Source: Porticoccus hydrocarbonoclasticus MCTG13d
GTDB lineage: Bacteria; Pseudomonadota; Gammaproteobacteria; Pseudomonadales; Porticoccaceae
Reading direction: 5' to 3'
NCBI RefSeq assembly: GCF_000744735.1
Contig: NZ_JQMM01000001.1
Span: 1,364,001 to 1,428,000, forward strand
DNA: 64,000 nucleotides
The notes below the pieces were generated by a model that saw only the letters and a list, made by a program, of their open reading frames with translations, was not told where the DNA came from and did not search any database. Below, in pieces: positions 50,233 through 63,226 of this stretch (positions are counted from its first letter, which is position 1; the number at the start of each line of letters is the position of its first letter). Position numbers and translations under genes: made by a program.

Positions 50233-50703
50233 ATGAAACACTGCCTGAGCCTTGCTTTTGTACTGATGGTGTTGTGGCTTGGAAATTCTGGCCACTATTC
50301 GCCGCTGTTATTGTCGCTCGGCGCTTTTTCCGTGGTATTTGCCGTCTGGGTTTCCCATCGTATGGATGTGGTCGACCATGAATCCCAGCCCCTTCATCTG
50401 AGCGGGCATATCTCATTTTTCTACTGTTGGCTGGTGGGTAAGATTATTCTCAGCAATATTGATGTGGTGAAGCGCATCTGGTTGGGCAATAAATCGATCA
50501 GTCCCTGTGTCGCCAGGCTGCCGTTGAGTCAGAAGACGGATATGGGAAAAGTCATCTACGCCAATTCGATAACCCTGACGCCGGGCACTGTGTCGATGGA
50601 TATCGAAGGCACTACAGTGTTGGTACACGCTCTGACGGCAGAGAATATAGCCGAACTGAAGGATGGTGAAATGAATCGGCGCGTTGCAGATCTGGAGCTT
50701 TAG
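50233..50703 (+). CDS. mrpE: Mrp-type Na+/H+ antiporter subunit E
   Basis: A 156-residue protein with two or three N-terminal membrane helices and a soluble C-terminal domain. The segment VIYANSITLTPGTVSMDIEGTTVLVHAL (given here as a region) is diagnostic of MrpE/MnhE. First gene of an eight- or nine-gene antiporter operon; mrpF starts immediately after its stop codon (TAGATG). MrpE is needed for assembly and full activity of the complex. Confidence 0.93.
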   Translation: MKHCLSLAFVLMVLWLGNSGHYSPLLLSLGAFSVVFAVWVSHRMDVVDHESQPLHLSGHISFFYCWLVGKIILSNIDVVKRIWLGNKSISPCVARLPLSQKTDMGKVIYANSITLTPGTVSMDIEGTTVLVHALTAENIAELKDGEMNRRVADLEL

Positions 50704-50976
50704 ATGCTGATTGCAAGTGCAGTGGCAATTCTGGTTGTGATGGTGATGGCGATTGTCCGTGCGTTGCTCGGACCCACAATTTATGACCGCATTCTGGCTG
50801 TTAATCTGTTTGGCACAAAAACCGTATTGCTGATCGCAGTAATAGGTTTTTTGTTCGGCCGGCCAGACTTTCTGGATATTGCACTGGTGTATGCATTAAT
50901 CAACTTCATCAGTATTGTTGGCGTGCTCAGGTATTTTGAATACAGCCGCAATGAAGAAGAGGGAGGATCCCTCTGA
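50704..50976 (+). CDS. mrpF: Mrp-type antiporter subunit F
   Basis: A 90-residue protein with three membrane helices; the motif RALLGPTIYDRILAVNLFGTK near the first loop and DIALVYALINFISIVGVLRYFE at the end are typical of MrpF. Abuts mrpE and overlaps mrpG by one base (TGATG). Confidence 0.93.
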   Translation: MLIASAVAILVVMVMAIVRALLGPTIYDRILAVNLFGTKTVLLIAVIGFLFGRPDFLDIALVYALINFISIVGVLRYFEYSRNEEEGGSL

Positions 50977-51296
50977 TGCTTGCCGGCATGGTGGCTATGT
51001 TGAGTTCTGCCTGTCTTTTACTGGGCGCTTTTCTGATTATTTCTGGTGCTGTCGGTGTACTGAGATTCCCCGATTTTTTCACCCGGATGCATGCTGCAGG
51101 TGTTACTGAAACGCTGGCTACTACACTGATCCTGCTCGGTCTTATACTGCTTGCGGGTTGGAGTATTTTGTCTTTCAAGTTGCTGTTGATTTTACTGTTT
51201 ATTCTGATCACGAGCCCGGTTGCTAGTCACGCACTGACAAAAGCGGCGCTCCATGGAAACCTTCAGCCGCTGGTCAATGAAAATAATGAACAATAG
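50976..51296 (+). CDS. mrpG: Mrp-type antiporter subunit G
   Basis: A 106-residue protein with three membrane helices. GAVGVLRFPDFFTRMHAAGVTETLAT is the MrpG/MbhC signature and ITSPVASHALTKAAL ends the helical part. Start overlaps the mrpF stop. A gap of about 100 bases, unusual for this operon, separates it from mrpB. Confidence 0.93.
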   Translation: MLAGMVAMLSSACLLLGAFLIISGAVGVLRFPDFFTRMHAAGVTETLATTLILLGLILLAGWSILSFKLLLILLFILITSPVASHALTKAALHGNLQPLVNENNEQ

Positions 51297-51357
51297 CTTT
51301 GGTACTCCAAACTGGGGGCGGGCGCAGAGCATTTCTCCCGTCAGATCCCTTGGTGGT

Positions 51358-51408
51358 ATGCATGAAGAAATGATGTTGATGACGAAGGGAGTGCCCCCAT
51401 CGAACTAG
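51358..51408 (+). CDS. possible 16-codon leader ORF overlapping the mrpB start
   Basis: ATG 51358 opens MHEEMMLMTKGVPPSN, ending at TAG 51406-51408. It reads across the proposed ATC start of mrpB (51399) in another frame, so ribosomes finishing it would stop within ten bases of that start. It could support initiation at the non-standard codon by coupling. There is no independent support that it is translated. Confidence 0.3.
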   Translation: MHEEMMLMTKGVPPSN

Positions 51409-52391
51409 TCCTGGATATTACGCTGTTGCTACTTCTGGTAGTCACCGCGCTGGCCATTGCCCGGCAGAGAGATCTGTTTGCCTGCGTGATGTTGGCGGGG
51501 ATCTATGGTCTGTTGTCAGCGAGTTTCTTTGTCTCCATGGATGCTGTGGATGTGGCCTTTACCGAGGCGGCTGTGGGCGCAGGGGTTTTCCCCTTGCTGA
51601 TGCTGACCGCACTGACCGTGGCCGGCCGTTATGAACAGACAGCCCACAGGCGACCGCGGGCAGCTTTTTTCCTGGTACTGGTGACCGGTGCTCTGCTGAT
51701 ATTGGGCACCTTGGACATGCCACCCTTCGGCTCGCCAGATGCCCCCGCACACACTCATGTCGCTGCGCGATATATTCAGGCATCTCCCACTGAAATCGGT
51801 ATTCCCAACATGGTGACATCGGTGTTGGCAGACTACCGTGCCTTTGACACCTTGGGGGAGGTGGTGGTGGTTTTCACGGCGGTGGTGGGTGTGCTGATTC
51901 TGCTGACGTCGGGGGGGAAGCGCCAACAGTCTTCCCCGGCAAATGCTGTTGAAACAATGCGCAGTCACATGATTCTGCGGGTGGTGAGCAAGATGCTGAT
52001 TCCCCTTATGTTGCTGTTTGCTCTCTATGTCCAGTTTCATGGTGAATATGGCCCCGGTGGTGGTTTCCAGGCCGGAGTCATTTTTGCGGCAGCGATTATT
52101 CTGTATGCAATGTTGTTTGGTCTGGTCAAGGCCCAGGCTGCGATCAAGCCGTCAATCCTGCGATGGTTGGCGGCATTCGGGGTTCTACTCTACGGTGGCG
52201 TGGGGGTTGTCAGTTTTTTGACAGGAGTGAATTACCTGGACTACAGCCGTCTTGCCGCCGATCCTGTTGCTGGCCGACACATCGGTATCCTCGTTATTGA
52301 GTTGGGAGTGGGCATCACAGTGGCCGCTGCGATGATTCTGATTTTTTACGCGTTTGCCGGTTATGCCACCGGTCGAGTTGAGGCCGAATAA
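51399..52391 (+). CDS. mrpB: Mrp-type antiporter subunit B fused to MrpA-C-terminal (DUF4040) domain; probable ATC start
   Basis: A membrane protein of about 330 residues. The N-terminal third is the DUF4040/MbhD-like module (LFACVMLAGIYGLLSASFFVSMDAVDVAFTEAAVGAGV region) that forms the C-terminal end of MrpA in classical systems; the C-terminal half is the MnhB domain (YVQFHGEYGPGGGFQAGVIFAAA region). Homologues begin M-E-L-hydrophobic-D. Here the matching residues I-E-L-V-L-D start with ATC at 51399, eight bases after AAGGGA; the frame has no ATG or GTG before 51426, where a TTG would cut off nine conserved residues. I therefore list 51399, with 51426 as the conservative alternative. Confidence 0.8.
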   Translation: MELVLDITLLLLLVVTALAIARQRDLFACVMLAGIYGLLSASFFVSMDAVDVAFTEAAVGAGVFPLLMLTALTVAGRYEQTAHRRPRAAFFLVLVTGALLILGTLDMPPFGSPDAPAHTHVAARYIQASPTEIGIPNMVTSVLADYRAFDTLGEVVVVFTAVVGVLILLTSGGKRQQSSPANAVETMRSHMILRVVSKMLIPLMLLFALYVQFHGEYGPGGGFQAGVIFAAAIILYAMLFGLVKAQAAIKPSILRWLAAFGVLLYGGVGVVSFLTGVNYLDYSRLAADPVAGRHIGILVIELGVGITVAAAMILIFYAFAGYATGRVEAE

Positions 52392-52741
52392 TGTTGCCGG
52401 AGCTATATAACTACTGGGTGGTAATCGTACTGATGATGATCGGTTTTTATATCGTCATCGTGCAGGGCAATCTGATCAAGAAACTGATTGGGCTGAATAT
52501 TTTCCAGACCTCTGTTTTTATCTTTTATATCAGTGTCGGAAAGGTGGCGGGGGGCAGTGCTCCGATCCTTGCCGAGGGCGTGAGTGTCTATTCCAATCCG
52601 TTACCCCATGTGCTGATTCTCACCGCCATTGTGGTGGGTATCGCCACTATGGCGTTGGCGTTGGCACTGGTGGTTCGCATCAAGAATGCCTATGGCACGG
52701 TTGAGGAAGAAGAGTTACAGGAAAGAGATTTGCGGTGCTGA
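52391..52741 (+). CDS. mrpC: Mrp-type antiporter subunit C
   Basis: A 116-residue NuoK-like protein with three helices; IKKLIGLNIFQTSVFIFYISVG and DPLPHVLILTAIVV-type (here SNPLPHVLILTAIVVGIATMAL) segments are diagnostic. Start overlaps the mrpB stop (TAATG); stop lies inside the start region of the following D-type gene. Confidence 0.93.
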   Translation: MLPELYNYWVVIVLMMIGFYIVIVQGNLIKKLIGLNIFQTSVFIFYISVGKVAGGSAPILAEGVSVYSNPLPHVLILTAIVVGIATMALALALVVRIKNAYGTVEEEELQERDLRC

Positions 52742-54207
52742 GCCATCTCCCTATTTTACAAGTGATTGTGCCCCTGCTGGCAGCACCAGCCTGTTTGTTG
52801 CTGGATAGGGCCCGTGCGGCCTGGCTGTTGGCCTGTATGGCCAGTCTCGTCTCAGTGGTAATCAGTGGCCTGCTGGTGTTCCAGGTTCATCAGTTCGGTA
52901 CGTTGAGCTATAGCCTGGGGGGGTGGGATGCACCCTGGGGTATCGAATATCGCATCGATTTGTTGTCGGCCTACGTGCTACTGATCGTCAGTGGTATTGG
53001 CGCATTGATGATGCTGGCTGCGAATACAGCTATCAGAATAGAAATTCCATCAGAAAGGCAGCCGCTGTTTTATGTGCTCTATATGCTCTGCCTGGCGGGT
53101 CTGCTCGGCATTGTCGCCACAGGCGACATCTTCAATGTGTTTGTGTTTCTGGAAATCTCTTCACTGGCAACCTATGCCCTGATTGCCCAGGGGCGGGACC
53201 GGCGTGCATTATGGGCCGCCTACCAGTATCTGATTGTCGGCACGATTGGCGCCACGTTCATCCTGATTGGTATCGGTTTTCTCTACAGTCTCACCGGCAC
53301 CCTGAATATGCAGGATCTCGCGAACCGGTTGCCGGCGCTGGAAAACTCTGCCACAGCCTTTACAGCATTTGCCTTTCTGATGGTGGGTGTCTGCCTGAAA
53401 CTGGCACTGTTCCCACTGCATTTGTGGTTACCCAATGCCTATGCCTACGCGCCGTCAATCGTGACCGCATTTTTGGCGGCTACGGCAACGAAAGTCGCGG
53501 TTTATCTGCTGATTCGTTTTCACTTTTCCGTGTTTGGGGTCGGTTTTGCCGCGTCCGTATTGCCGTTGCATAGCATATTTCTGGTGCTAGGCCTGGCGGG
53601 GGTGTTCGTGGCGTCTCTGGTGGCGATTCAGCAGCCCAATGTGAAACGTTTGTTCGCCTATTCCAGTGTGGCGCAGATCGGTTACATGATTATTGGTATC
53701 GGCATTGGTTCTGCTACCGGATTACAGGCAACCTTGCTTCACCTTTTCAATCATGCACTGATGAAGGGAGCGCTTTTTCTAGCATTGGCAGCAGTTGTGT
53801 TCCGTTTTGGCAGTGCCGATATACGACATTTCGAAGGGCTGGGCCAGCGCATGCCCTGGACCATGGCAATTATCGTGATTGGCGGTCTGAGTTTAATTGG
53901 TGTGCCCGGCACGGTTGGTTTCATCAGCAAGTGGTATCTGGTTCTGGCGGCCCTCGAACGCGACTGGTGGCCACTGGTTATTGCCGTGCTACTGGGTTCC
54001 CTGCTCGCTGTTATTTATATATGGCGACTGGTGGAAGTGGCTTACTTCAGGAAAGGTGAGAATGAAGTCTGCAGAGAGGCGCCGCTGTCGCTATTGATAC
54101 CAACTGCCATATTGGCACTGGCGAATATCTACTTTGGGATCGACACGCGCCTGCCGGTCTATCTATCGGATAGTGCGGCACAAATGCTGTTCGGAGGTGG
54201 CCCGTGA
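52735..54207 (+). CDS. mrpD: Mrp-type antiporter subunit D, first copy
   Basis: A 490-residue NuoL/M/N-like proton channel with about fourteen helices. The conserved ion-path residues are present: Glu140 in FVFLEISSLATYAL and Lys222 in LKLALFPLHLWLP. GTG start, overlapping the mrpC stop by seven bases; its stop overlaps the next D-type gene by four bases (GTGA). Confidence 0.92.
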   Translation: MLSHLPILQVIVPLLAAPACLLLDRARAAWLLACMASLVSVVISGLLVFQVHQFGTLSYSLGGWDAPWGIEYRIDLLSAYVLLIVSGIGALMMLAANTAIRIEIPSERQPLFYVLYMLCLAGLLGIVATGDIFNVFVFLEISSLATYALIAQGRDRRALWAAYQYLIVGTIGATFILIGIGFLYSLTGTLNMQDLANRLPALENSATAFTAFAFLMVGVCLKLALFPLHLWLPNAYAYAPSIVTAFLAATATKVAVYLLIRFHFSVFGVGFAASVLPLHSIFLVLGLAGVFVASLVAIQQPNVKRLFAYSSVAQIGYMIIGIGIGSATGLQATLLHLFNHALMKGALFLALAAVVFRFGSADIRHFEGLGQRMPWTMAIIVIGGLSLIGVPGTVGFISKWYLVLAALERDWWPLVIAVLLGSLLAVIYIWRLVEVAYFRKGENEVCREAPLSLLIPTAILALANIYFGIDTRLPVYLSDSAAQMLFGGGP

Positions 54208-55682
54208 CAGCACTTCTGGCCCTGCAACTTACTCTGGTCGTGCCACTTTGCGGGGCATTGCTGATCGCCCTGTGTGGCCGTTGGCCTAATTTCAGGGAAG
54301 CGATAACTCTGTCTACGGCGGGCCTGCTCTTCTATCTGGTGATACAGGTATTCGGTGCCGTTGAACGCGGTGGAGATGAGGCTACTGCACTTTATGTAGA
54401 GTTGTGGCAGATTTTGCCCGGCCTGCACATTGCCCTTCACTCGGAACCCCTGTCGATTCTTTTTGCGCTGGTGGCCAGTGGGCTGTGGATTGTCACTTCG
54501 GTTTATTCGATCGGCTATATGCGCGCCAATCAGGAAAAGCGCCAAACCCAGTTTTATGTGTGTTTTGCCGTCGCAATTTTTGGGGCTATGGGTGTGGCGT
54601 TTGCAGCCAACCTGCTGACCCTGTTTCTGTTCTATGAAATATTGACCCTGTCCACTTATCCGCTGGTTGCCCACAAGGGCGATGACAAGGCTCGCGCCGG
54701 AGCAAGAACGTATCTCGGTATTCTGCTGGCGACCTCCATTGGGTTGTTTTTACCGGCCATGATGTGGACCTATTTTGTTGCCGGCACCCTGGATTTTCGT
54801 CCCGGCGGTATACTTGAGGGCAATATCGGCGGCATCGGCGCCACAATCTTGCTGCTGATGTTCATGTTCGGGATCGGCAAGGCTGCGCTGATTCCGGTGC
54901 ATCGCTGGCTGCCAGCTGCGATGGTAGCGCCGACGCCCGTGTCTGCCTTGCTTCATGCTGTGGCTGTGGTGAAAGCCGGTGTGTTCACCATCGCTAAAGT
55001 GGTGATCTACATTTTCGGGCTCGACTTCCTGGTGGATGTGCCACACGAAGTGATTGCCGTCTATATCGCAGGGTTTACCATTGTGGTGGCCTCCATACTG
55101 GCCCTCCGGCAAACCAATATAAAACGTATGCTGGCCTATTCGACGGTCTCGCAGTTGTCTTACATCGTGCTGGCGGTTCTGGTGCTCACCCCCCTCTCTG
55201 AAATCGGAGCTATCGTGCATATCGTCGCCCACGCGGTGGCCAAGATCACACTGTTTTTTGCGGCGGGTGCGATCTATATCGCCAGCAAAAAAACTGAGAT
55301 TAACCAACTGGATGGCATCGGGTTTCGGATGCCGATTACCATGGGTGCGTTTGCGATAGCGGCATTCAGTATGATCGGTGTGCCGCCTACCGGTGGCTTT
55401 GTCTCGAAGTGGTACATGATTGCCGGCGCGTTTCAGATTGACAGTTATTTTGTGCTAATTGTGCTAACGCTTTCTACAGGTCTCAATGCGGCCTATTTTC
55501 TGCCGATTATTTTCAGGGCTTACTTTCGCAAGGAGTCAGTTGCGCCACCGAAACCCCATGGCGAGGCGCCCCTGCCCATGGTGGGGGCCATCTGTGTCAC
55601 GGCATTGCTGACGCTGTTGGTATTCTTTCTGAATGGTCCGTTGGTTGCCTTTGAAATGGCAGTGCTGGGGGTGCCCCGATGA
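54204..55682 (+). CDS. Mrp-type antiporter D-like subunit, second copy
   Basis: A 492-residue proton-channel subunit, divergent from the first copy. Glu145 in LFYEILTLSTYPLV and Lys226 in GIGKAALIPVHRWLP are kept, and the HAVAKITLFFAAGAIY helix has the later conserved Lys. In classical operons the second large channel is the N-terminal part of MrpA; here it is this stand-alone protein, without the MrpA C-terminal extension. GTG start overlaps the previous stop; stop overlaps the next start (ATGA). Confidence 0.9.
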   Translation: MTALLALQLTLVVPLCGALLIALCGRWPNFREAITLSTAGLLFYLVIQVFGAVERGGDEATALYVELWQILPGLHIALHSEPLSILFALVASGLWIVTSVYSIGYMRANQEKRQTQFYVCFAVAIFGAMGVAFAANLLTLFLFYEILTLSTYPLVAHKGDDKARAGARTYLGILLATSIGLFLPAMMWTYFVAGTLDFRPGGILEGNIGGIGATILLLMFMFGIGKAALIPVHRWLPAAMVAPTPVSALLHAVAVVKAGVFTIAKVVIYIFGLDFLVDVPHEVIAVYIAGFTIVVASILALRQTNIKRMLAYSTVSQLSYIVLAVLVLTPLSEIGAIVHIVAHAVAKITLFFAAGAIYIASKKTEINQLDGIGFRMPITMGAFAIAAFSMIGVPPTGGFVSKWYMIAGAFQIDSYFVLIVLTLSTGLNAAYFLPIIFRAYFRKESVAPPKPHGEAPLPMVGAICVTALLTLLVFFLNGPLVAFEMAVLGVPR

Positions 55683-55954
55683 CCAACCGTAAGAACGCAC
55701 CAAATGACGTTCAAAAAAGCTGGCTCTACCGGCCGGAAAATCATAAGAAACTCTGGTGGGGTTTTGGCCTGATACTGGCTGCGACGGTTGTCGTCCAGTT
55801 GTTTGCTTCGGTACACGGCCACTTCGGTTTTGACGGGTGGTTCGGTTTCAACGCCGCTTTTGGTTTTGTTTCATGTGCCCTGATGGTGGTATTCGCGAAA
55901 CTGCTCGGATACCTTTTGAAACGGCCCGATAATTATTACGATGACGATGCTTGA
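55679..55954 (+). CDS. small membrane protein embedded in the antiporter operon
   Basis: A 91-residue protein with two membrane helices (about 27-46 and 54-78) and charged ends (MTNRKNAPNDVQKSW, RPDNYYDDDA). A His/Gly/Phe-rich loop (HGHFGFDGWFGFNAAFGF) joins the helices. I do not recognise a named family. Overlaps both neighbours (ATGA upstream, 14 bases downstream), which makes it a committed member of the operon and probably an accessory subunit of the complex. Confidence 0.78.
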   Translation: MTNRKNAPNDVQKSWLYRPENHKKLWWGFGLILAATVVVQLFASVHGHFGFDGWFGFNAAFGFVSCALMVVFAKLLGYLLKRPDNYYDDDA

Positions 55955-57632
55955 ATTAATTTTTCCGCCTGCATTCATTCTCATTCTCGGCGCTTTTCTG
56001 ATCGGGCCGATAAGGGCTCCGTTGCGGCCGTTGGTTGTGCTGGGCGCACCGCTGTTGACACTCTATGCTATCTGGCAGATGGGCGACGGCATTCAACTGA
56101 CCGCACAGTTTCTCAATTACGAGATTCAGCTGATTGAGTCGAGCCCTCTGCGCCGCCTGTTTGCAACTATCTTTGCCATCATGGCGTTTGTCGGCGGGCT
56201 GTTTGCTTTTCGCCAGGCGAAGTGGTGGGAACTCGCCGCCGCCCAGGCCTACGCGGCGGGTGCTATCGGCGTTTCCTTTGCCGGGGATCTGATTACCATG
56301 TTCCTGTTCTGGGAACTGATGGCCATTTTTTCGACCGTCGTGGTGTGGTGTGGTGGCACCGAGGGAGCGCGGAAAGCGGGAATACGCTACGCCATCATGC
56401 ACTTGGTGGGTGGTGTACTGTTGAAAATCGGTATTGAGGGGGTGATGGTCCACACCGGATCCATCGAGATTCAGCCGATCCCGCTGACCAATATTGATGG
56501 CTGGCTGATCCTGATAGGTGTGCTGATTAACGCTGCGGCACCGCCATTATCCGCCTGGCTGGCGGATGCATACCCGGAATCCAGCCCCAGTGGCTCGGTT
56601 TTTTTGTCGGCCTTCACCACCAAAACCGCTGTGTTGGCACTGATACTGTTATTCCCGGGTCAGCAAATCCTGATCTGGATTGGTCTCTACATGATTTTCT
56701 ACGGGATCATCTATGCCCTGCTGGAAAACGATATGCGACGAATCCTGGCCTATTCCATCGTCAACCAGGTGGGATTCATGGTCTGTGGTATCGGCATCGG
56801 TACCGAAATGGCCATCAATGGTGCGTCGGCCCATGCCTTTGCCCATATTATCTACAAGGCACTGCTGCTGATGTCCGCGGGGTCTGTGTTGTATATGACC
56901 GGGCGTCGCAAGTGCAGTGAATTGGGCGGGCTCTACCATTCGATGCCGCTCACTGCACTGTGTGGCATTATCGGTGCCCTGGCGATATCGGCATTTCCGT
57001 TTACCTCGGGCTTTATCTCCAAGTCGATGATATCCCAATCCGCCGCTGACCAGCATATGATGATGGTCTGGCTATTGTTGCTGGCCGCATCCGCAGGTGT
57101 TTTTCTACACGCCGGTATCAAGTTTCCCTGGTTCGTGTTTTTTCAGAAGGACTCGGGGCTACGGCCCAAGGACCCGCCCTGGAATATGCGCGCAGCCATG
57201 GTTCTCTTGGCCGTCGCCTGTATTTTTCTGGGTGTTTTCCCGGAGTGGCTCTACCGCCTGCTTCCCTATCCCGTGGATTATGTGCCATATACCGCATCGC
57301 ATCTGGTGACCCAGCTGCAATTACTGCTGTTTTCCGGGCTGGCTTTCTTTGCCTTGTTGCCGTTGATGAAGCGCACCCTGACTATCAGTCTCGACTTTGA
57401 CTGGGTGTATCGTCGGCTTATCCTGTCTCTGATGAACCGATTAATCTGTCTGCTCAGCTGCCTCGATACGGCTTTGCGAAGCGCTTTTAGCCGGATATTC
57501 TCCATCATCTGGACCTATATAGGCCGACACCATGGCCCCGAAGGGATGTTGGCACGCACCTGGCCAACAGGCAGTGTCGTGACCTGGGTCGTGGTACTGC
57601 TTACTGTCTTCCTGCTGTTCAGTATCTATTGA
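55941..57632 (+). CDS. Mrp/Mbh-type D-like proton-channel subunit, third copy
   Basis: A 563-residue channel subunit, longer than the other two, with extra C-terminal helices (about 440-563). Glu125 in LFWELMAIFSTVVVW is present, but the position of the TM7 lysine is Asn197 (VLINAAAPPLSAWLADAYPESSPSGS region), so its proton path differs. The NAAAPPLSAWL signature places it with the Na+/H+ antiporter D subunits found in Mbh-like and other non-classical clusters. Last gene of the operon. Confidence 0.9.
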   Translation: MTMLELIFPPAFILILGAFLIGPIRAPLRPLVVLGAPLLTLYAIWQMGDGIQLTAQFLNYEIQLIESSPLRRLFATIFAIMAFVGGLFAFRQAKWWELAAAQAYAAGAIGVSFAGDLITMFLFWELMAIFSTVVVWCGGTEGARKAGIRYAIMHLVGGVLLKIGIEGVMVHTGSIEIQPIPLTNIDGWLILIGVLINAAAPPLSAWLADAYPESSPSGSVFLSAFTTKTAVLALILLFPGQQILIWIGLYMIFYGIIYALLENDMRRILAYSIVNQVGFMVCGIGIGTEMAINGASAHAFAHIIYKALLLMSAGSVLYMTGRRKCSELGGLYHSMPLTALCGIIGALAISAFPFTSGFISKSMISQSAADQHMMMVWLLLLAASAGVFLHAGIKFPWFVFFQKDSGLRPKDPPWNMRAAMVLLAVACIFLGVFPEWLYRLLPYPVDYVPYTASHLVTQLQLLLFSGLAFFALLPLMKRTLTISLDFDWVYRRLILSLMNRLICLLSCLDTALRSAFSRIFSIIWTYIGRHHGPEGMLARTWPTGSVVTWVVVLLTVFLLFSIY

Positions 57633-61075: not shown

Positions 61076-63226
61076 CTAGCGTTGACAGCGGTGGTAACGC
61101 TCCACCAGTTTTAACAATCCCTGCGGTGCATGGGCTTTTTTCCACTCACCGGCTGCAAACTTGTTGGCTTCCACCAGGGTGGGATAGATATGGATGGTGC
61201 CCAGAATTTTATTGAGTCCGAGTCCGTGTTTCATCGCCAGTACATACTCGGCGATCAGATCCCCCGCATGATTGCCGACAATTGTCACTCCCAGTATCCG
61301 GTCTGAGCCGGGTCGGGTCAGCACCTTGACGAAACCCTCGGCACAGCCGTCGGTAATGGCCCGATCCAGATCGTCGATGCTGTAGCGGGTCACCTCGAAT
61401 TCCACGCCCTGTTCAGTAGCATCCTGCTCGTTCAGTCCCACCCGTGCCACTTCCGGGCTGGTAAAGGTGGCCCAGGGAATCACCGAGTAATCCACTCTGA
61501 ATTTTTTAAAGCGGGAGAACAGTGCATTAACGGCAGCATACCAGGCCTGGTGGGCGGCGGTGTGGGTGAACTGGAAGGGTCCGGCCACATCGCCGACGGC
61601 ATAAATGTTGGGAAAGCGGGTCTGTAGAAAGTCGTTGAGGGCAATGGTGCCGTTTTTATGGATCGTTATGCCCAGTGCTTTCAGCCCAAGTCCGTCGGTA
61701 TTGGCTCTGCGGCCGATGGCGATCAGAATCTGGTCAAACACCAGGCGCACACTTTCACCCTGGTGTTGGGTATAGAGTATTTTGTCGCCACCTTCTACCG
61801 CGAAGCAATCCGCCTTGTGGCCTAGCAACAGTTCGACACCATCCTGGCGCAGAGCATCGGCCACCAGCTTGGCGGCATCGTCATCTTCCCGGGGTAAAAT
61901 ACGCGGCAGCATTTCCACTTGGGTGACAGAGGTGCCGAGGCGGGCAAAGGCTTGGGCCAGTTCACAGCCGATGGGGCCGCCACCGAGAATCAACAGGCGG
62001 CCCGGGTTGTCGCGGATTTTCCACAGGGTCTCGGTGGTCAGGTAATCAATCTGTTCCAGCCCTGGAAAGGGCGGCACCAATGGGGCAGCACCGGAGGCGA
62101 TAATAATATTGCGCGCGGTCAGGGTTTGTTTTCCTTCGTTGCTGGTAATTTCCACCGCCCAGGGGGAAACCAGTCGCGCGCTGCCCTCGCGGCAATCTAC
62201 CCCCAGCAGGCGGTAACGTTCAATCGAATCGTGGGGTTCGATGGCCTTGATCACCCTCTGAATACGATCCATTACCGCGCTGAAATCGGCTTCCGGTTGC
62301 AGCGGCATAAGGCCGTAGTCCCGGCTGTGGCTGGCTATTGAGGCCACCTGGGCACTTTTGATCAGGGCTTTGGACGGCACACAGCCGGTGTTAAGGCAGT
62401 CGCCGCCCATGCGATCTTTTTCCACCAGGGTGACGCTAGCCTTGACGGTGGCGGCGATATAAGCGCTCACAAGTCCACCGGAGCCGGCGCCGATAATAAT
62501 GAGATTGCGGTCAAAATGTTTTGGCTTTTTCCAGCCGCGATAGACCTTCGTGCGCTGTAGGGGTGCGAGTAGGGCGCGGGCAATCCAGGGGAACAGTCCA
62601 AGCAGAACAAAGGCACCGATCAGCCCGGGGGAGAGAATATCCCCGGCGCTTTGCAGTTGTGCCACCTGGGTGCCGGCGTTGATATAGACGGCGGTGCCCG
62701 CCAGCATTCCCACCTGACTGACCCAGTAGAATGTCCAGGTTTTCAGAGGCGTCAGCGCCATCACCAGGTTGATCAGAAAGAATGGAAAGACCGGCACCAG
62801 CCGCAGGGTAAACAAATAAAAGGCACCGTCTTTTTCTATGCCCTGGTTGATGGTTTTCAGGCGGTCGCCAAAACGCTGCTGCACCCAATCCCGCAACAGG
62901 TAACGGGCCACCAGAAAGGCCAGGGTGGCACCCATGGCCGAAGCGAAGGAGACAAGCAACAACCCGGTGACAAACCCGAAAATAGCACCGCCCGCCAACG
63001 TCATGACGGCAGCGCCGGGGATCGACAGCGCAGTCACGACCACATACACCACCAGAAAAATCAGCCAGCTCAACAGCCGGTTTTCCGCATAGAAGCTGTG
63101 AATGATGTCCAGTTGTTGTTGCAAGTAAGCCAGACTCAGATATCGCCCGAGATCGAGGAAGAAATACGCTGCCATCGCGATAACCACAGCGGCGACAATC
63201 ATCAGCTTCTTGGTGGTTCTATACAC
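61076..63226 (-). CDS. fusion of a TVP38/TMEM64 (VTT/DedA-like) membrane domain with an FAD-dependent disulfide oxidoreductase
   Basis: A 716-residue two-part protein. Residues 1-225 are an SNARE-associated/VTT membrane domain (GGAIFGFVTGLLLVSFASA and RLVPVFPFFLINLVMAL segments). Residues 238-716 are a mercuric-reductase-like flavoenzyme: FAD loop GAGSGG (246-251), redox pair C277-LNTG-C282, NAD loop LGGGPIGCELA, and a C-terminal dimerisation domain (HIYPTLVEANKFA). No C-terminal vicinal Cys pair or N-terminal metal-binding domain of true MerA is present. This fusion is a known architecture whose substrate is not established. Upstream of arsC. Confidence 0.92.
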   Translation of the reverse strand: MYRTTKKLMIVAAVVIAMAAYFFLDLGRYLSLAYLQQQLDIIHSFYAENRLLSWLIFLVVYVVVTALSIPGAAVMTLAGGAIFGFVTGLLLVSFASAMGATLAFLVARYLLRDWVQQRFGDRLKTINQGIEKDGAFYLFTLRLVPVFPFFLINLVMALTPLKTWTFYWVSQVGMLAGTAVYINAGTQVAQLQSAGDILSPGLIGAFVLLGLFPWIARALLAPLQRTKVYRGWKKPKHFDRNLIIIGAGSGGLVSAYIAATVKASVTLVEKDRMGGDCLNTGCVPSKALIKSAQVASIASHSRDYGLMPLQPEADFSAVMDRIQRVIKAIEPHDSIERYRLLGVDCREGSARLVSPWAVEITSNEGKQTLTARNIIIASGAAPLVPPFPGLEQIDYLTTETLWKIRDNPGRLLILGGGPIGCELAQAFARLGTSVTQVEMLPRILPREDDDAAKLVADALRQDGVELLLGHKADCFAVEGGDKILYTQHQGESVRLVFDQILIAIGRRANTDGLGLKALGITIHKNGTIALNDFLQTRFPNIYAVGDVAGPFQFTHTAAHQAWYAAVNALFSRFKKFRVDYSVIPWATFTSPEVARVGLNEQDATEQGVEFEVTRYSIDDLDRAITDGCAEGFVKVLTRPGSDRILGVTIVGNHAGDLIAEYVLAMKHGLGLNKILGTIHIYPTLVEANKFAAGEWKKAHAPQGLLKLVERYHRCQR

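Follow-up and report, generated by a model that had tools for sequence, protein, structure and literature searches.

The 64,000-nucleotide (nt) stretch of Porticoccus hydrocarbonoclasticus MCTG13d analyzed here (the window) carries a nine-gene cluster at positions 50233–57632 that encodes, with a probability of about 70%, a group 3 Mrp-type cation/proton antiporter, putatively a Na+/H+ antiporter driven by the proton-motive force, in which two antiporter-like subunits, D1 and D2, would be canonical and a third, D3, distal and altered. As their sequences show them, D2, D3 and the small protein encoded between them, X, constitute a module common to this Mrp-type cluster and the rhizobial 'green' complex I, where it replaces NuoL. 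Coordinates refer to the whole window, and D1–D3, X and B are gene labels used here. An earlier note on this DNA had described the gene order E-F-G-B(DUF4040+MnhB)-C-D-D-x-D with nearly all genes overlapping. All nine open reading frames (ORFs) are found in place, in the order E-F-G-B-C-D1-D2-X-D3; six of the eight junctions overlap, E and F abut, and G and B are separated by 102 nt. Pfam and NCBIfam assign a family to every product except X. The features are as follows (TM, transmembrane helix).

50233..50703, + strand: MrpE/MnhE (PF01899, E 7e-26)
50704..50976, + strand: MrpF (PF04066, E 1e-18), with an Asp-Arg pair (DRILAVN) aligned with classical MrpF
50976..51296, + strand: MrpG (PF03334, MnhG; TIGR01300 above cut-off)
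51399..52391, + strand: B, MrpB fused to the MrpA C-terminal module (PF13244, MbhD; PF20501, MbhE; PF04039, MnhB; PRK12507)
52391..52741, + strand: MrpC, NuoK-like (PF00420, Oxidored_q2, E 3e-22)
52735..54207, + strand: D1, MrpD-type antiporter-like subunit with the full residue set (PF00361; residues; tree)
54204..55682, + strand: D2, second antiporter-like subunit, own clade, full residue set (PF00361; residues; tree)
55679..55954, + strand: X, 91 amino acids (aa), two predicted helices, constant neighbor of D3 (X profile; model; no family)
55941..57632, + strand: D3 (PRK12668), distal-type antiporter-like subunit (PF00361; lateral helix and last TM; N197, His154)

Group 3 Mrp systems are defined, according to passages of PMC8415708, by the lack of mrpA and by one or several mrpD genes. 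The cluster has no mrpA and three mrpD-like genes, together with E, F, G, B and C. MrpA is missing as the earlier note had it, and the full-length copy elsewhere that would have overturned the note's reading is absent too: in the host assembly, a single contig of 2.47 Mb (99.27% complete), D1, D2 and D3 are the only PF00361 matches, and no MbhD domain was found besides that of B. Stand-alone D-like proteins thus stand in place of the MrpA channel, and the single chain combining channel and C-terminal module that marks groups 1 and 2 is found in neither cluster nor genome. The other half of MrpA is accounted for by B, which unites MbhD, MbhE and MnhB domains in one chain, in agreement with the proposed fusion of the MrpA C-terminal module to MrpB. 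B exceeds the NCBIfam cut-off of PRK12507 (420 vs 272 bits), as D3 does that of PRK12668, a subunit D model (694 vs 564 bits); the best models of D1 and D2 are also subunit D models, both scoring under cut-off. Among twelve named genomes, Haliea salexigens, Halioglobus pacificus and one Shewanella likewise have exactly three PF00361 matches each; the other nine have 4 to 12.

A redox complex of the MBH or complex I kind, to which the cluster would contribute the ion-pumping half while the catalytic genes lay elsewhere, is highly improbable. B is of the MbhD/E type and D2-X-D3 does occur in complex I operons, which would suit such a complex, but no NuoH-type protein (PF00146) was found in the genome, in a search that matched 11 of 14 control genomes. 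The nine flanking genes scanned, among them a RIO kinase, a double-ATPase ABC protein, a SulP protein and an ion channel, contain no redox-module family, hydrogenase families not having been specifically searched genome-wide. With no MrpA, NuoH-type protein or second MbhD, the genome offers no partner of the complex I kind and gives no sign of complex I itself.

Three antiporter-like subunits and their key residues

In a maximum-likelihood (ML) tree of 79 rows, where starred denotes the support mark used, D1, D2 and D3 form one starred group each. D1 groups with MrpD and NuoN (90/95, not starred), while NuoL, MrpA and HyfD constitute a starred group that includes neither D2 nor D3. Starred support also unites haloarchaeal D2 and D3 with their counterparts; for haloarchaeal D1 the values are 94/92. 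The approximately unbiased (AU) test rejected the placement of D3 with NuoL and MrpA (p 0.011); that of D2 was not rejected (p 0.12), and the ML tree places D2 outside. Such a tree had been suggested in the earlier note, which saw in recent duplication of the three D genes a reason to abandon its reading; by phylogeny they are instead old paralogues in separate clades, D1 near MrpD/NuoN and D2 and D3 each on their own.

The TM5 Glu and the TM7, TM8 and TM12 Lys of the family are all present in D1 (E140, K222, K253 and K399, kept in 72/72 rows) and in D2 (E145, K226, K257 and K402, 73/73 rows). The D3 of the window keeps E125, K228 and K361, has an Asn (N197) at the TM7 Lys site and a His (His154) in TM6. 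Of 67 other antiporter-like rows, 66 have Lys at the TM7 site and one has Glu; none has His in the TM6 column. We further analyzed 124 D3 sequences, after a D3-like gene with most key residues lost (L167) and a fragment (L169) had been dropped; 30 of the 52 D3 genes of the class sample, those at fetched loci, were read, including that of the window, which was counted once. The TM6/TM7 combination is His/Asn in 93, Gln/Lys in 29, Lys/Lys in one and His/Lys in one, and all 124 retain the TM5 Glu and the Lys of TM8 and TM12. An initial candidate, the invariance of N197 in D3 (81/81 rows of the best 80 loci plus the window, and also 34 rows with two haloarchaea and Sinorhizobium), was discarded as a selection effect; the rows of the best 80 loci are similar to each other (31 of them have a mean column identity of 72%), and invariance there is weak evidence.

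When the TM6 and TM7 columns are removed, a tree of 70 D3 places all His/Asn sequences on one side of one branch (100% in the Shimodaira–Hasegawa-like approximate likelihood ratio test), a side that holds the window, the haloarchaea and the complex I D3. One D3 clade has TM7 Lys and TM6 Gln, and may represent a natural double switch. Because TM7 changes once on the tree, a pairing of TM6 with TM7 is suggestive only; a mutual-information ranking of the 124 D3 did not single out TM6, as the two clades differ at many sites. Rooting on distant antiporters places the TM7-Lys clade inside, on long branches, and we are unsure of the direction of the switch.

Two further loci show departures at these sites. 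A single 1056-aa frame of a Magnetovibrio locus (L146, 5013–8180) holds a pair of antiporter-like domains, its first half with Glu at the TM7 Lys site, and the D3-like gene of L167 (10513–12426) lies behind a classical-looking Mrp cluster.

The predicted structure of D3 (pLDDT 83.7, pTM 0.80; pLDDT below 50 at residues 1–4, 477–487 and 540–542) shows an antiporter core, a 47-residue helix (485–531) and a last TM. It aligns with E. coli NuoL over residues 5..563 (Z 44.1, 535 residues, root mean square deviation (rmsd) 6.7) and with chain 6u8y_X of MBS (Z 43.3, 493 residues, rmsd 6.1). Measured between the DW motif and the last TM, the span is 57–70 residues in 81 D3 (62 in 42 of them), 80–81 in two complex I D3, and 51 and 56 in two NuoL, for which the anchors are similar and not identical. 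A related insertion has been argued, in passages of PMC9040806, to reflect a longer helix spanning more channels. The span data fit a model in which D3 would be the outermost subunit, with a longer lateral helix where four channels are spanned.

Two other roles for D3 were weighed against these residues. As a fully working third proton channel, it would bring the antiporter to about three H+ per cation and allow Na+ extrusion at a lower membrane potential. The TM5 Glu, TM8 Lys and TM12 Lys present throughout the 124 D3, joined by the TM7 Lys in 31, speak for such a channel, as does the description of the complex I version as adding an ion-pumping subunit (passages of PMC9040806). We nonetheless consider it unlikely, since the D3 of the window is without the TM7 Lys, a site at which Ala in MrpA or MrpD abolishes antiport (passages of PMC5703873). 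Conversely, D3 and X might be a structural cap in which the lateral helix holds D1 and D2 together and no ions are carried; this would explain the absence of the TM7 Lys in 93 of the 124 D3, and the D3-like gene of L167 has also lost the TM5, TM8 and TM12 residues. The same three residues would, however, be needless for a mere scaffold, and one D3 clade has the TM7 Lys, which makes the cap a doubtful explanation too.

Protein X and the D2-X-D3 module of complex I

X proteins are about 90 aa long, with a charged N-terminus, two helices and a KR..YY end. In a modest model (pLDDT 73, pTM 0.40) the helices are predicted at residues 19–42 and 50–80. No Pfam or NCBIfam family was found for X in a scan of 34 members, whose weak matches (lowest E 7e-4 for Pfam, 0.002 for NCBIfam) are scattered over unrelated families, and neither its sequence nor its fold matched a solved structure. 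No study of X or of the TM7 Asn of D3 was found in the literature searched, in which the MrpA-less kind is known; its gene order is widespread among the genomes scanned. Neither is mentioned in passages of PMC5703873, PMC9040806, PMC7784846, PMC8415708, PMC7419157, PMC9568556, PMC12361115, PMC8879329 and PMC5419562; Chadwick 2018 and Degli Esposti 2016 may discuss the residues.

X is a constant neighbor of D3 and belongs with it. In the class sample (274 genomes), D3 exceeds the PRK12668 cut-off in 49 genomes, that of the window included, and a profile of X matches these 49 and one more (G038), in which X is followed by a 124-residue piece of D3 at the end of the contig (L168). X lies directly upstream of 51 of the 52 D3 genes in this sample, the one miss being at a contig edge. 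The phylum sample (398 genomes) yields 21 genomes with X, which are the same 21, again including that of the window, with D3 above cut-off; in addition, a 63-aa frame resembling X (22.8 bits) occurs in one genome with D3 under cut-off (G608). The earlier note rightly listed an ORF at 55679–55954, and overlooked its tie to D3. No other genome of the same order (three in the class sample, and every one in the phylum sample) has D3 above cut-off, and the spread of D3 is therefore patchy.

The D2-X-D3 block is also found within complex I operons. On a plasmid of Sinorhizobium meliloti, the annotated nuo operon reads J-K-[D2]-[hypothetical]-[D3]-M-N-A-B-C-D-E-F-G, and the three bracketed proteins match the profiles of the cluster (D2, 598 bits; X, E 1e-14; D3, 590 bits). 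In the 79-row tree, the S. meliloti D2 and D3 are sister to those of the cluster (98/94 and 100/98). The block follows NuoJ-NuoK in G525 (L201) and NuoH-I-J-K in G211 (L212), and the complex I D3 has the same TM6 His and TM7 Asn as that of the window. The X of the Sinorhizobium complex I block is carried by 99 plasmid records. Passages of PMC9040806, citing Degli Esposti 2016, describe a 'green' complex I with two MrpD-like subunits in place of NuoL, and leave X unmentioned. The composition first described for the cluster holds; its sharing of D2-X-D3 with the rhizobial complex had been missed.

Other settings of the block were also observed. Contig C244 of G116 (L211) carries two X-D3 pairs, adjoining two-component-system genes and a non-ribosomal peptide synthetase gene; neither D2 nor any Mrp or Nuo gene was found within 12 kb. 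Elsewhere (L200, 7449–10828; genome of 1.3 Mb), D2-X-D3 occurs next to an ankyrin-repeat gene, with no profile-detectable Mrp or Nuo genes in 14 kb.

Proposed mechanism and a second MrpA-less type

In the antiporter that we propose, E, F, G, B and C would form the cation module and D1 would adjoin it, like MrpD. D2 and D3 together would replace the missing MrpA channel, with D3 outermost and its lateral helix extending back over D2 and D1, and X may clamp onto D3 with its two helices, probably where D2 and D3 meet. Proton entry, down the membrane potential, would take place via D1 and D2, both with the whole Glu5-Lys7-Lys8-Lys12 set, and would drive the cation, presumed by homology to be Na+, out through the cation module; NqrA is present in the genome, which makes a Na+ economy plausible. 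One model, in passages of PMC7419157, has the TM5 Glu/TM7 Lys pair of one channel communicate with the TM12 Lys of the next. The corresponding coupling point of D3 is altered (TM7 Asn, TM6 His), and under that scheme a Glu/His pair with a partner of lower pKa could replace the Glu/Lys pair, the proton contribution of D3 being uncertain. It does not follow, as had been assumed, that three channels would change the stoichiometry: only D1 and D2 have the whole residue set, and with an altered coupling point in D3 having three channels is not enough in itself to raise the H+/Na+ ratio.

In favor of this proposal, the Asp-Arg pair of MrpF, the second MrpA C-terminal Glu (FDTLGE) and the PGGGF of MrpB, all in the cation module, align with classical Mrp. 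Other observations weigh against it. The TM7 Lys is present in 31/124 D3, so not every member requires the altered state. The first MrpA C-terminal Glu of B lies one helix turn earlier (TEAAVGAG) than in MrpA (TQLVIETV), as in MbhD, and this earlier Glu recurs in 58/58 loci where the motif was found, so that the cation site is not identical to that of group 1/2 Mrp. Two haloarchaeal clusters, both on plasmids, gave no X, and none was detected in G251, G215, G140 and G195 of the class sample, whose D3-like matches score under cut-off and are partial in G215 and G195; in G251 (L166), unrelated ORFs lie between D2 and a divergent D3.

A second MrpA-less type, with the order E-F-G-B-C-D1-D2-third channel, was found as six clusters in five of the twelve named genomes (L144, L145, L147–L150; F was not detected in L147, nor C in L150). 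D2 and the third channel share one frame of about 1075–1100 aa in three of the six. Together with 12 rows from a search of the class (L170–L181; taken from 13 strong matches, one of which had no locus), the residue set comprises 18 third-channel rows. In 18/18 the TM5 Glu is replaced by Ser, Thr or Ala and the TM7 and TM12 Lys are kept, as is the TM8 Lys in 15/18. TM6 has a Glu in 18/18, in a column that is Glu in 0/16 other rows (Asp in one). The AU test neither rejects (p 0.27) nor establishes homology of D3 with this third channel. As aligned here, both MrpA-less types show a third channel whose charged pair is changed and whose TM6 residue differs.

Tentatively, the outer channel of MrpA-less systems could have been rewired at the coupling pair in two ways, by TM7 Asn and TM6 His in the X-D3 type and by loss of the TM5 Glu with a Glu one turn away on TM6 in the second; X would fit the altered channel into the complex, and the 'green' complex I need not pump an extra proton despite its subunit count. 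For Mrp and complex I alike, it is still debated how antiporter-like subunits pass charge on to one another, and a channel family with two alternative solutions at the coupling pair, in an antiporter and in complex I, makes the published model (passages of PMC7419157) testable. It also bears on the proton counts of complexes with extra subunits, and X is a conserved small protein added to a well-studied machine.

Gene layout, spread and comparison with known systems

B likely starts at a rare start codon. The ORF list begins at TTG 51426, which is CTG in 3/3 aligned close relatives (L035, L036 and L038, used as L034 did not align), and no in-frame ATG, GTG or TTG lies upstream. The best candidate is therefore ATC 51399, behind GAAGGGAG, which is kept in 3/3. 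The promoter scan gave 9 hits vs 7.9 expected, and the terminator scan 18 vs 10.9, the latter weak matches. A SulP gene (DauA model) lies 670 nt upstream of the cluster and also in three of five close-relative loci (L035, L036, L038), L034 and L037 ending before its position; with SulP in only three further loci (L082, L090, L095), a link to the cluster was dismissed as probably incidental. Further downstream in the window, positions 61076–63226 (− strand) encode a 716-aa protein with a VTT domain fused to a pyridine nucleotide-disulfide oxidoreductase.

A contig scan returned at least 569 relatives (E up to 1e-3). Tabulating gene order, as the earlier note advised, in the best 80 of at least 569 loci, we found 15 cut by a contig end and all nine gene types in the remaining 65/65; 56 of these follow the strict order of ORF starts, with B as one or two ORFs. 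The other nine differ in order or in split ORFs, which is put down to overlapping stop-to-stop ORFs. The nearest relatives among the best 80 of at least 569 loci are five metagenome-assembled genomes (MAGs) titled Porticoccus or Cellvibrionales, with D3 97–98% identical. The cluster was also observed in MAG records titled Xanthomonas sp. and Klebsiella pneumoniae (L039, L040), titles that are possibly mislabeled.

The cluster had been set apart as non-classical in composition. It belongs to a known kind, group 3 Mrp; further mrpD-like genes are in print, in the passages cited below, and PRK12668 exceeds its cut-off in 49/274 class genomes. As in the stand-alone mrpEFGBB'CD of Pyrococcus furiosus (passages of PMC8415708), there is no mrpA, the order is E-F-G-B-C-D and the MrpA C-terminal module is a B-type protein, but that system has one D and separate B parts, whereas the present cluster encodes X as well as three D and joins the two B parts in one chain. 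The group 3 locus of Ca. Nitrospira alkalitolerans has two NuoM/NuoL-like genes after mrpD and a BicA-kind bicarbonate transporter nearby, an arrangement like the present one; its text, unlike the cluster, lists mrpA-G (passages of PMC7784846, compared by description only). With Pyrococcus MBS and MBH, the cluster has the MbhD/MbhE domains in common, and the best sequence matches among solved structures are MBS chains (D3, 6u8y_X, E 4e-33; D1, 6u8y_H), although no redox module was found beside it. Classical group 1/2 Mrp (Bacillus, Dietzia) corresponds in E, F, G, C, the MrpD-type D1, and the MrpA C-terminal and MrpB modules; it has one MrpA with a NuoL-type channel, whereas D2 and D3 fall outside the NuoL and MrpA group in the ML tree. 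The rhizobial 'green' complex I has the same D2-X-D3 block with TM6 His and TM7 Asn, set in a complex I operon and with a lateral-helix span of 80–81 residues, compared with mostly about 62 here.

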